Part shown: positions 288 to 20,717 of the stretch, piece by piece
Numbering within the stretch: position 1 is the stretch's first letter
Layout of the letters: each line of letters starts with the position of its first letter
IMG/VR virus record: IMGVR_UViG_3300044712_000561
Span: 1 to 28,681 of that record
Direction: 5' to 3' (one strand)
Length of the DNA stretch: 28,681 bases
Source of the DNA: a virus
Notes under the pieces: generated by a model
Told to the model about the DNA's origin: nothing
Databases searched by the model: none
The model's input: only the letters and a program-made list of their open reading frames with translations
Program-made: the position numbers and the translations under genes

Positions 288-1088
288 TCAAGCGAAGATT
301 ATTTCGCCCTGAGGATTAAACTCCCTGCGATTCGTCCCAACAGTCTCCAGTCGTGGAGTTGGAAACATGCGGACCATGCGACCGTCCAGTGTTGTCCCCA
401 TCTCCGTGCGATACGCTGGACTTTGCTTAAAAAAAAATGCCGCACCTGATTCCAAACACTTCTGGTTCATTGCTCTTGGCCACGACAAATCGTGATTGCG
501 AAACCCCGGACCAGATTCACCGCCGTAAATCACCCAGTCAATTCCGGTTAGGTCCAAATCATCCAGAGGACCAAGTGCTGGTTCGTAACTGATGAATCGA
601 ACAGTGGCTGGAATGTATCGCAAATAATCCGCTCTCACCGCCACGCGCATGTCCTCAACCGAGGTTCCAAGCCAGACGTTTGGCCAGCCTTCTGTGCCCC
701 AATCCTCCGGCAGATGGTCTCCGATGCGCTCTGGTCGTTTGGTGAGCAATTGCCAGTCAAGCCACGGAGTTTCACGAATCATTTCCCAAAGACGCGGACG
801 CATTCCGTCAATGGTTGGATGATCCTCAAATACATCACAGAGCGATGCGCAAAACACCAGTTTGCGCTGCCCAGTTTCTTCTGCCTCCTGATTCCATTGC
901 GCTGGCTTTTTCCAGTTTGATGCGCTTGTGATTTGCCGAACTCCATTCTTTCCCCACAAACTCAACCCCATCCTGTCGCGGGTGAGTCGTTCCGCGTAGC
1001 AATTTTTGCACCCGTCCGACACTTTCACGCAGCCCATTGCCGGATTGAAGGTGTTGTTTGTCCAAGCGATGATTGACTTTTCAGCCAT
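288..1088 (-). CDS. DUF5131 (phage Gp37/Gp68) family protein
   Basis: The 266-residue protein opens with the family signature: WTNNTFNP at residues 9-16, then Cys20, Cys27 and Cys30 in a CxxxxxxCxxC arrangement that resembles the Fe-S-binding cysteine cluster of radical SAM proteins. Downstream stretches (LLTKRPERI, VWLGTSVED, FISYEPALGPL, WVIYGGESGPGFR) are typical of the Gp37/Gp68 family. The family is common in phages and its reaction is not established. It is the last gene of the early operon and starts 6 bases after the preceding frame ends. Family assignment is firm; function is unknown. Confidence 0.9.
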   Translation of the reverse strand: MAEKSIIAWTNNTFNPAMGCVKVSDGCKNCYAERLTRDRMGLSLWGKNGVRQITSASNWKKPAQWNQEAEETGQRKLVFCASLCDVFEDHPTIDGMRPRLWEMIRETPWLDWQLLTKRPERIGDHLPEDWGTEGWPNVWLGTSVEDMRVAVRADYLRYIPATVRFISYEPALGPLDDLDLTGIDWVIYGGESGPGFRNHDLSWPRAMNQKCLESGAAFFFKQSPAYRTEMGTTLDGRMVRMFPTPRLETVGTNRREFNPQGEIIFA

Positions 1089-2107: not shown

Positions 2108-2353
2108 TTAACACTCTGCCTTGATGACGAGCATGGTTTGTGTTGCAACGCATCCGTTAGCGAGTTGTTTCAATCCTCCATCGTCATCCATCATTTCGTG
2201 CGTTTCGATTGCGATAGACGTGATTGGAATAATGCAGACTCCATCAGATTCCAGTGAATGCGTGCATTTTGATTTGTCCACACAGACTTGCTTTCGACCC
2301 CATCCAGAAGCCATGAGCTTTCCTAGCTCTTTGTGCAGTTTTGCTATTGTCAT
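2108..2353 (-). CDS. Small phage protein of unknown function
   Basis: An 81-residue protein starts at ATG 2353, overlapping the stop of the upstream gene by ATGA. It contains four scattered cysteines (CVDKSKC, GVC, GCV) and an acidic MMDDDGG patch. A longer in-frame extension upstream is the shadow of the neighbouring gene. I do not recognise the family. Position and coupling support expression within the operon. Confidence 0.65.
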   Translation of the reverse strand: MTIAKLHKELGKLMASGWGRKQVCVDKSKCTHSLESDGVCIIPITSIAIETHEMMDDDGGLKQLANGCVATQTMLVIKAEC

Positions 2354-2673
2354 CGCGCCACCTTCCTTGGTCTTCCGCGCTTGCCCTTGCGAGCCATCGC
2401 TGCGGCGATGAGTTTCTGTATCTCCCCCTTGCCCCACTCGGCCATCACCCGCTTGGCCACAGCGAGGAAGATGACGCCTGAACCGTAGAGCGGCTGCGTG
2501 CGCTTGTCCTCGTCGGCGTGGAGCCAGCGGTCCATCGTGTAGCGTGGGAACGGTGCGCCGATGCGCTGCTCGAATGCGGAGCGCAAGGCTTCTGCCGCCC
2601 CGTATCTGCCCTTGACCCACTCGCGGACTTCCGCAAAGTCGCGGTCAGTGAGCGCCTCTGTGATTGCTTTCAT
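2350..2673 (-). CDS. Phage protein of unknown function, basic C-terminus
   Basis: This 107-residue protein has a hydrophobic core (YGSGVIFLAVAKRVMAEWG, about residues 63-81) and a strongly basic tail, RKGKRGRPRK, which resembles an AT-hook-like or general nucleic-acid-binding extension. A GAAAGGAACC Shine-Dalgarno lies just before the ATG. Both ends overlap neighbours by ATGA, so it is translationally coupled. Function is unknown; DNA contact is only suggested by the basic tail. Confidence 0.75.
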   Translation of the reverse strand: MKAITEALTDRDFAEVREWVKGRYGAAEALRSAFEQRIGAPFPRYTMDRWLHADEDKRTQPLYGSGVIFLAVAKRVMAEWGKGEIQKLIAAAMARKGKRGRPRKVAR

Positions 2674-15301: not shown

Positions 15302-15306
15302 GAGAT

Positions 15307-15322
15307 TGGACGCGGCGGGAAT
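15307..15322 (-). repeat. tmRNA-internal copy of the 16-bp duplicated end
   Basis: This is the genuine acceptor and T-arm end of the tmRNA, identical to 14794-14809. The bases flanking the two copies differ on both sides, so the duplication is exactly 16 bp. In this copy the sequence after the discriminator is ATC rather than CCA. Confidence 0.85.
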
Positions 15323-15636
15323 CGAACCCGCGTCCTTGGAAACTTCACAGCAACCGATGCACACGTTTATTAGGGGCGAACTGCTTCGCCCTCCACCAGC
15401 CACCAGATAACGCACTGATGACGCTGCGATTTGCTCGCTGCGACGTTCGCACCGGCTAGCGAGCATCTGCCGGGTGAACGGTTCGCGGATTAAACCGCGA
15501 AGGCAACTTCGCGCTGAGCGAAGTCCACAGGAACGATTTTGTCGTTTCCGTTTTGGATGTGGATTTAACGAGGCCAACATCCTTCCTCGACGTGCGTTTG
15601 CTGTTTCTGTTTCCAAGTCGATACCTTTACGCGCCC
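15307..15636 (-). ncRNA. ssrA: Transfer-messenger RNA (tmRNA)
   Basis: The 5' end GGGCGCG pairs with CGCGTCC at the 3' end (one G-U), with A as discriminator. The T arm is GCGGG-TTCGATT-CCCGC. CTTGGAAAC near the 5' end pairs perfectly with GTTTCCAAG near the 3' end, the tmRNA helix 2. GGTATCGAC matches the conserved 5' segment. A tag frame starts at GGAAACGAC and reads GNDKIVPVDFAQREVAFAV before TAA, and the stop sits in the loop of a CGCGG/CCGCG hairpin, as in helix 5. CCA is not encoded directly after the discriminator. tmRNA rescues stalled ribosomes with SmpB; no smpB is in the window. Confidence 0.95.
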
Positions 15637-17937: not shown

Positions 17938-18030
17938 TGAGCGCGGCAGGATTTGAACCTGCAAGTATTATCAATACCAGCGCAGTTGATTAGGCTGCTA
18001 CACAGCGTCTTTACATTCCGCCACGCGCTC
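17938..18030 (-). tRNA. Type II tRNA-like gene (Leu-like), anticodon unclear
   Basis: GAGCGCG pairs with CGCGCTC, with A as discriminator. The T arm is GCAGG-TTCAAAT-CCTGC. A variable arm GTATT-GAT-AATAC is perfect. GTGGCGGAA matches the D-arm start of leucine tRNAs, but the GG usually found in the D loop is not there. Between the D arm and the variable arm there are 27 bases, about 7 more than usual. The best anticodon hairpin is GCAG with CTGC around a 9-base loop CCTAATCAA. Anticodon TAA (Leu) or AAT would need an odd loop. CCA is not encoded. It may be a degenerate or unusual tRNA. Confidence 0.65.
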
Positions 18031-18804: not shown

Positions 18805-19899
18805 CTAGGAAGCGAGGCTCATCAGCTTGCCCGCCCGCTTCTCCAAATCAATCCTCGCGTCCATGTATTCAAGGGCGCGAGCCGATGCGGTGAAACCGTT
18901 CACCATGTCCCAAACGCTATCGCATTGCCCCTCTTCGCTGCGGGCGAACTGAATTGCCTCACGCACTTCGCCGCGAGTGAACCCGTTGGCCTTGGCGAAC
19001 TGGCCAATGCCGTTCTCGAAGTCATCGCCCTTCTTGCTCACCCAATCCAACCGGATACCCTTGAGGCGCTTCACCGCGTCCTCGACGGGCTTGGCAGAGG
19101 CGTTGACGTAATCGAGCAACGCGGGCATCGCGTCACGGTCGAACCGGGCAGGACCGCCCGAGGTATGGCGCACAACCAACTTCGTCACGTCCTTGGCATC
19201 ATAGACAATGTGGTTTCCACAGCAGACTCGGAACAAGAACGTCATCAACCCGAACGTCCGCGCTCCGACTTCCGAGTTCCAAACGATGAATCCCCGGTTC
19301 ATCTGGTCGCGCTCGCTGCCGCCGTCCACCATGCTCCCGCCATCAATCATGAACATGAAAACGTCATGGTCGCTGGCGTAAAGACCGGACGGCTTGCGGG
19401 ACCAATCAAGCGGGTTAAAGAACCGCCCGTTGCTCTGCTCGACGATGCGTCCCACTGCGTCCACGCAATCCGCGTCCCAGATGCGCCCGTAGGTAGTGCT
19501 GGTGACCGCTTGGAGCGTGTTGATGTCGCCCTCGTCGTTGCGGATGGTCATCACCTTGAACGCTTCCTTGTTGTCCACCGTGCGACGGCGTTCCAAGCTG
19601 GTGTTAATGCACTGGGCAGCGAGAGGCGCGGGCAAGGTGCGGAGATAACCAGCAGGCGCACCGGCGACGGTGGCGAGTTGCCCGAAGGCGTAGTGCGTCG
19701 GGGCGGACGGCTGGATCTTGTGGTTCAGTACCAGCCCGCCAGCTTCCGGCGCTTCCACACGCAAGTCTTCGATGCGGAGGTCTTCCGATTTGCTGCGGAG
19801 ACGACGACCGTGAACCGCGTCGCGCAAAGCTGTCAGCGTTTCAAAACGCTGGTCGGCAGGACGGTTCATCCACTGAGTTGAGGCTTCCATGAGGTTCAT
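18805..19899 (-). CDS. DUF932 family protein
   Basis: The 364-residue protein carries the DUF932 pattern: QAVTSTTYGRIWDADCVDAV (about residues 130-149), DHDVFMFMID, then RGFIVWNSEVGARTFGLMTF and FRVCCGNHIVYDAKD (about 203-240). Members are common in phages and plasmids; the biochemical role is not established. A GAAAGGGAAAAC site precedes ATG 19899. The type II hammerhead lies 32 bases upstream of the start, so self-cleavage would give this cistron a new 5' end. Confidence 0.9.
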   Translation of the reverse strand: MNLMEASTQWMNRPADQRFETLTALRDAVHGRRLRSKSEDLRIEDLRVEAPEAGGLVLNHKIQPSAPTHYAFGQLATVAGAPAGYLRTLPAPLAAQCINTSLERRRTVDNKEAFKVMTIRNDEGDINTLQAVTSTTYGRIWDADCVDAVGRIVEQSNGRFFNPLDWSRKPSGLYASDHDVFMFMIDGGSMVDGGSERDQMNRGFIVWNSEVGARTFGLMTFLFRVCCGNHIVYDAKDVTKLVVRHTSGGPARFDRDAMPALLDYVNASAKPVEDAVKRLKGIRLDWVSKKGDDFENGIGQFAKANGFTRGEVREAIQFARSEEGQCDSVWDMVNGFTASARALEYMDARIDLEKRAGKLMSLAS

Positions 19900-19931
19900 C
19901 TTGTTTTCCCTTTCATTGTTTATGTTCTGAC

Positions 19932-19986
19932 GGACTCGTCAGCAGCCGCATAACGGCTGGACCGGGCAGCGTGCCCGGTTTCGTCC
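19932..19986 (-). ncRNA. Type II hammerhead ribozyme
   Basis: On the minus strand all core elements are present in type II order. GGAC (stem II, 19986-19983) is followed by GAAA, then a CCGGGC/GCCCGG hairpin (stem III). UC gives the cleavage site, and a CAGCCG/CGGCUG hairpin forms stem I. The conserved CUGACGA (19942-19936) and GUCC (closing stem II) complete it. Every conserved base matches the hammerhead consensus. Cleavage is predicted after the C complementary to 19960. The first base of the ribozyme is the last base of the upstream stop codon. An alternative CTGAC/GTCAG hairpin (19927-19942) could mask the core. Confidence 0.93.
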
Positions 19987-20717
19987 TAAATTTGCACCGC
20001 TGTCTCGCGCTCCCATGCACAACGCACAGCACGCTCAACCAGCATCCGCTCTCCGTTCGCGACTGAGCGCAACCGGCAGGCAGGCACAGCGAAAAGATGC
20101 GCTGCATTCAACACCGTCTCGCGATCAACGCGCAACTTCAGCTCTGCGAACCTCAGCGATCCCTCAACGCAATTACCAGCCCGACGCGAATCCGCGAGAG
20201 TCACCATCGCGTTGTCCGATTGCTCGTCGTAGCGACGTTGCTCCAATTCATTCTCGCGCATGCGAGCGTCCACTTCTGCGCGATGCTTCCGCGCCTCGGC
20301 CAGAGCGCGTTTGACGCGGGCAACAAAATCGCGGGCAAGTAAATCATCGCTTGTCGGATGATACTCAACCCGCAGGTCGGACGTGATAATTGACCCGTCA
20401 TGGTCCCACTCCGTCCCCGCAGGAGCGCGAAGGTTGCGCGTTTTCAATTCTCCGGCAAACCCGTAGGTGTATGTCGCTTGAAAGCGATTCTCGATGCGCA
20501 GGAATGAGGTATAGACCGGGATGTAGTTGCTGCCTTTATATCCTTTGTAGCTGCCGCGATACTCGAATGAGTCAACGCCCACATCTCCGAGTTGATGAGC
20601 CTTTGTCCGCGCACGCGCCGTCAGCCAATTTCGTTTAGCGGGATGCGCTGAATGCGCTGCCGATGTTGCGCGACAAGCGAGTGCCGAATTTTCGATTGTA
20701 TGATTGTGAGGTTTCAT
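19986..20717 (-). CDS. Hypothetical phage protein (243 aa)
   Basis: ATG 20717 is preferred because AAAAGGAAC precedes it. The middle of the protein (FEYRGSYKGYKGSNYIPVYT, then LRIENRFQATYTYGFAGEL) is rich in Tyr/Gly and beta-like; the second half is a charged helix (VARVKRALAEARKHRAEVDA). Its last residues (RCAWERETAVQI) run into the hammerhead: the TAG ends on the first base of the ribozyme. No family is recognised. Confidence 0.65.
   Translation of the reverse strand: MKPHNHTIENSALACRATSAAHSAHPAKRNWLTARARTKAHQLGDVGVDSFEYRGSYKGYKGSNYIPVYTSFLRIENRFQATYTYGFAGELKTRNLRAPAGTEWDHDGSIITSDLRVEYHPTSDDLLARDFVARVKRALAEARKHRAEVDARMRENELEQRRYDEQSDNAMVTLADSRRAGNCVEGSLRFAELKLRVDRETVLNAAHLFAVPACRLRSVANGERMLVERAVRCAWERETAVQI

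Follow-up and report, generated by a model that had tools for sequence, protein, structure and literature searches.

Described hammerheads and the phage locus

In viroid and satellite hammerheads, an alternative fold masks the catalytic core by base pairing. The masking partner is the opposite side of the rod-like genome. In the tailed phage hammerheads considered here, the partner is instead a dedicated 5-nt tail beside stem II.

Type II hammerheads were placed between phage genes in 2011 and are clustered at prophage gene junctions (Perreault 2011, PMC3088659). Their consensus includes a pseudoknot between loop I and the 3' tail that is common but not universal (RF02276; PMC3088659). A second comparison is the hairpin ribozyme in yeast, where a 4-bp product helix dissociates slowly on its own and exchange between neighboring helices is fast in vivo (Mahen 2010, PMC2817708); an exchange of this type is what the proposed action of the phage tail would involve. 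The shared element is a later-transcribed helix that competes with a ribozyme helix. Those constructs are engineered yeast mRNAs with helices of 8-14 bp, whereas the phage hairpin is natural and has 6 bp (PMC2817708).

The window analyzed here is a 28,681-nt stretch of DNA from an uncultivated phage, IMG/VR record IMGVR_UViG_3300044712_000561. On its minus strand, positions 19986-19932 are confirmed by sequence analysis as a complete type II hammerhead. This ribozyme and its class have in common with the published type II hammerheads the core, the type II order, and a phage intergenic setting (RF02276; PMC3088659), and the frequent occurrence of several copies in a row (PMC3088659). The class to which it belongs has a 4-bp stem II, mostly a 5-nt loop I, and no excess of loop I-tail pairing. 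Some members of this class have a tail that is complementary to the core, a feature for which no published description was found. A pseudoknot in the window between loop I UUAUG and the 3' flank CAUAA was considered and rejected because the complementarity is not conserved in relatives and the class lacks such an excess.

The first-pass annotation of this DNA regarded a gene-junction type II hammerhead with a possible switch as worth testing. The junction part of that novelty was already published in 2011 (PMC3088659), and the tail looks to be the new part. No description of a core-complementary tail was found in the main text of the open-access papers searched.

Architecture of the ribozyme and its gene junction

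All features in this section lie on the minus strand. Read 5' to 3', the ribozyme is GGAC GAA ACCGGGCA-CGC-UGCCCGGU C CAGCCGU-UAU-GCGGCUG CUGACGA GUCC, in the order stem II, GAA, stem III, C17, stem I, core, and stem II. The full sequence, GGACGAAACCGGGCACGCUGCCCGGUCCAGCCGUUAUGCGGCUGCUGACGAGUCC, occurs exactly once in the window. All conserved hammerhead bases are there, namely CUGACGA (core CUGANGA), GAAA, and U16.1 C17, the UH at the cleavage site. The 5' strand of stem II, GGAC (19983-19986), pairs with the 3' strand GUCC (19932-19935), and the catalytic strand CUGACGA occupies 19936-19942. Stem III is the hairpin ACCGGGCA-CGC-UGCCCGGU (19961-19979, A15.1-U16.1 included), and stem I is the hairpin CAGCCGU-UAU-GCGGCUG (19943-19959). 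Folding predicts a three-stem junction of -27.8 kcal/mol (z -3.1) with the core in type II order. Both the fold of 19988-19932 and the model alignment leave stem II open and close stems I and III with loops. By the hammerhead rule, cleavage is predicted after C17 (19960) and before 19959.

Upstream lies a gene of 243 aa with no known family (19986-20717). It has an AAAAGGA ribosome-binding site, and codon usage fits best in its own frame. Relatives of this ORF were sought and none were found. Its stop codon, TAG at 19988-19986, contributes its final G as the first base of the stem II 5' strand. Downstream of the ribozyme, GUCAG (19927-19931) is followed by a leader with an AAAGGG ribosome-binding site (19900-19926) and then by a DUF932-like phage gene of 364 aa (18805-19899). 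The protein matches PHROG phrog_1362 (E 2.6e-38) and Pfam DUF932 at E 1.6e-4, just below the cutoff. Between the ribozyme end and the ATG at 19899 there are 32 nt. The first-pass annotation had read this junction correctly, both in starting the ribozyme on the last base of a stop codon and in counting 32 bases to the DUF932 start. The 5' end that it expected opposite 19959 agrees in position with the hammerhead rule.

Detection and distribution

The Rfam model RF02276 (Hammerhead_II) matches the ribozyme when a 201-nt stretch is searched, with 30.1 bits (E 1.4e-4), which falls short of the 37-bit gathering score. A Rfam search across the whole window misses it, and so do Rfam searches of seven relatives. 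These misses are probably due to search filters, and absence there says little. Phage hammerheads are probably under-counted, with the compact type II class escaping whole-contig searches with RF02276.

An independent covariance model was made with 25 phage hammerheads sharing a single layout, leaving out the window and its DUF932 relatives. It finds the ribozyme with 66.1 bits and E 2e-14 as the sole real match in the window; the next match has E 1.1. A structure scanner run on 1.94 Mb of shuffled sequence returned 2 weak matches and 0 strong ones.

To sample relatives without regard to the RNA, 22 loci were picked from IMG/VR by the DUF932 protein alone. The same ribozyme lies directly 5' of the DUF932 gene in six of the 22, and it is missing upstream of that gene in the other 16. 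The six ribozyme-bearing relatives have DUF932 proteins of 53-55% identity, and three of their ribozymes are identical (L002, L004, and L005). Among the DUF932 relatives without a hammerhead (L006 and L009-L023), several apparently have plain GC-rich hairpins there, e.g., L011-L013, L018, and L019.

Across homologues, stems I-III show 77 both-sided changes with 100% pairing, though the rows were picked by core and stems and pairing is thus partly by construction. Both sides change in 10 of 16 pairs, and the covariation score is reached by 0 of 500 shuffles. The stems are also kept in the protein-selected relatives. The earlier claims of a complete hammerhead with all conserved bases (E 2e-14 with the independent model) and of a gene-junction position stand, the latter with sequence-level support from the same placement in relatives whose DUF932 protein is ~55% identical. 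The proposed Rfam Hammerhead_II search gives a match in 201 nt that is below the gathering score and vanishes at whole-window scale.

Pattern scans that ignored the tail and used three different stem II sequences found at least 369 unique hammerheads of type II whose stem II has 4 bp. Several loci hold four to nine copies in a row. In the collected set, 92 of 118 tailed copies and 272 of 400 untailed ones have a long frame whose stop codon ends between -8 and +3 relative to stem II. The start codon follows the hammerhead at a median of 28 nt (tailed) or 22 nt (untailed). A stop before and a start after the hammerhead are a general feature of the class. These counts come from related sequences chosen by core and stems, and the collected matches are a lower bound.

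A role specific to DUF932 was rejected, as the genes downstream of collected hammerheads are very diverse. DUF932-related genes make up the two largest downstream-gene clusters (21 and 12 loci, with some contigs counted twice). Other downstream genes encode ArdC-like and GP88 proteins.

The core-complementary tail

GUCAG stands directly 3' of stem II in the window and in 6/6 relatives, while stem II itself varies. Together with the preceding C, it is able to pair with CUGACG of the catalytic strand. The result is an alternative hairpin, CUGACG-AGUC-CGUCAG (19927-19942), in which 19942-19937 pair with 19932-19927 and the active core is excluded. This is the CTGAC/GTCAG hairpin that the first-pass annotation had named as a competitor. 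It is present, and on sequence evidence it recurs and co-varies across many phages and is not an accident of the window copy.

Among the matches listed (loci L144 onward plus earlier-collected contigs), 53 of 369 tail-blind hammerheads carry the tail, about one in seven. In these 53 copies UCAG sits at offset 0; offset 1 accounts for 10 copies and no other offset for more than 4. The base before UCAG pairs with core position 7 in 53/53 (33 U/A, 19 C/G, 1 U/G). Shuffles of the tail-blind set give a mean of 28 Watson-Crick pairs, and the observed 52 is reached by 0 of 20,000. A second scan let core position 7 and the tail base occur in any of their four combinations. A standard pair occurs in all 95 of its unique matches (57 U/A, 35 C/G, 3 U/G, 0 C/A), for a p of 7e-23 if relatedness is ignored, and 74 of the 95 also pass the stem scanner. 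A pattern scan favoring GTCAG was left out of the covariation claim. Catalysis fixes CUGA and G8, which leaves only one pair of the hairpin free to vary, and the covariation therefore comes from a single position and from related sequences.

Four loci hold both core/tail versions. Moreover, near-identical pairs differ by a double change of core and tail (the L120 copies, and L103 versus L178). Public genomes add 4 structure-confirmed tailed copies, in an Acidobacteria MAG and a Rhodobacteraceae MAG, all of them U/A.

The hammerhead could be plainly constitutive, with the tail a neutral leftover spread by descent and by module exchange among phages. The small tailed share of the tail-blind copies among the matches listed fits this explanation, as does the relatedness of the sequences, which makes the counts non-independent. 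It is nevertheless quite unlikely given the zero C/A mismatches in 95 matches, the coexistence of the two versions in single phages and their alternation between near-identical copies, and the retention of the tail while stems I-III diverge. The scarcity of tails does mean that the tail is not needed for use at a junction, because only about one tail-blind copy in seven has one.

The repeat CTGAYG-N4-CRTCAG could also be a protein binding site at the DNA level that merely overlaps the ribozyme. It is palindromic, and covariation would be expected in DNA too. However, the repeat is invariably found at the catalytic strand, whose sequence catalysis already fixes, and it is located inside operons between stop and start codons. 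A protein would also not require change in step with a free core base, and a DNA site is considered highly improbable. The tail as an extension of stem II that pairs with the 5' flank was rejected, with pairing of 0% at the first pair and at most 30% at the others.

Predicted function of the tail

The core-tail hairpin enters the minimum free energy (MFE) fold once the tail is included. Core-tail pairing excludes the active fold because the core and part of stem II are consumed. By nearest-neighbor energies, which omit tertiary stabilization of the active fold, the locked fold is below the active one in 118/118 tailed copies, by 2.6 (sd 1.0) kcal/mol on average. In most copies, stem II persists in the MFE fold until 4-5 bases of the tail have been transcribed, so the cut can come before the lock. 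The calculated association of the cleaved products goes from -6.0 to -1.2 kcal/mol with the tail, ~4.8 weaker. In untailed copies, the next five bases leave product association unweakened.

These calculations are compatible with a lock that acts after cleavage, and this reading is somewhat favored: the tail would eject the upstream product and cap the downstream mRNA with abutting hairpins. The compact type II hammerhead would cut a polycistronic phage mRNA between the orphan gene and the DUF932-like gene, at 19960/19959 by the hammerhead rule. Since stems I and III are both closed hairpins in type II, each new mRNA end would sit at a hairpin. On the upstream mRNA, the stem III hairpin would be followed by a single terminal C carrying a 2',3'-cyclic phosphate. 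The first nucleotide of the DUF932 mRNA would have a 5'-OH and be paired within the stem I hairpin. After the cut, little besides the 4-bp stem II would keep the pieces together. The 5-nt tail N'UCAG would then pair with core CUGAN and displace the stem II strand, releasing the upstream piece and making the cut irreversible. The downstream mRNA would be left with a 5' end at which the stem I hairpin abuts the 6-bp core-tail hairpin. Both mRNAs should decay more slowly, one protected by a 3' hairpin and the other by a paired 5' end bearing a 5'-OH. We infer this order of events and the effect on mRNA stability and expression.

By calculation, the locked fold is the more stable one before the cut as well, so the tail could just as well inhibit. 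The main rival is an off-switch, in which the tail hairpin keeps part of the uncut transcript inactive and cut and uncut mRNA coexist. Both the lower calculated energy of the locked fold in 118/118 copies and the presence of the hairpin in the MFE fold of the full junction would fit. However, transcription finishes stem II ahead of the tail, which gives the ribozyme a head start, and tailed and untailed copies coexist and serve in one phage. An off-switch is possible but less likely, and the energetics fit the post-cleavage lock at least as well.

Under the off-switch, a ribosome terminating at the overlapping stop would occlude stem II together with the GAAA strand. The locked fold would then be favored, and the cut would be coupled to upstream-gene translation. 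The stop codon is at stem II offset 0 in 44/118 tailed versus 69/400 untailed copies (p 1e-5), an excess that is possibly a lineage effect. The stronger form, a translation-gated ribozyme in which the terminating ribosome chooses between the cutting fold and the core-tail hairpin at many phage junctions, is unlikely. If true, mRNA splitting would be coupled to upstream-gene translation.

Tailed phage ribozymes thus appear, from their sequences, to carry a built-in lock or switch. Mutation of the five-base element opposing the catalytic core should alter product release, re-ligation, or cleavage. If the post-cleavage lock holds, phages would use self-cutting RNAs as mRNA borders with hairpins at both new ends, and the tailed hammerhead would be a compact one-way ribozyme design.

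Other features of the window

A type-P1 twister candidate (RF03160) lies at 21445-21374 (-), 1.4 kb upstream of the hammerhead on the same strand and 14 nt before the start of the ORF at 21359-21123. It scores 35.5 bits against a curated cutoff of 67.2. P2, P4, and both pseudoknots are intact with altered sequences (GAC/GUC, GG/CC), compensatory in the pseudoknots, and P1 has only 3 bp. A strict twister pattern finds this candidate and one more (L294) in 4.18 Mb and none in shuffled sequence. L294 is a phage contig in which a twister-like element and a tailed hammerhead share a strand, at 318-368 (+) and 2308-2358 (+). In the window, the twister candidate and the hammerhead bracket a 1.45-kb mRNA segment. 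Speculatively, cleavage by both would free this segment with 5'-OH and cyclic-phosphate termini, which RtcB-type ligases can join.

A tRNA-like Rfam match of 93 nt at 17938-18030 (-) has 33.8 bits and no ARAGORN call. The window also contains a tmRNA gene at 15306-15636 (-), with a Rfam E of 1.2e-45 and the ARAGORN tag GANVAASKSQRHQCVIWWLVEGEAVRP.
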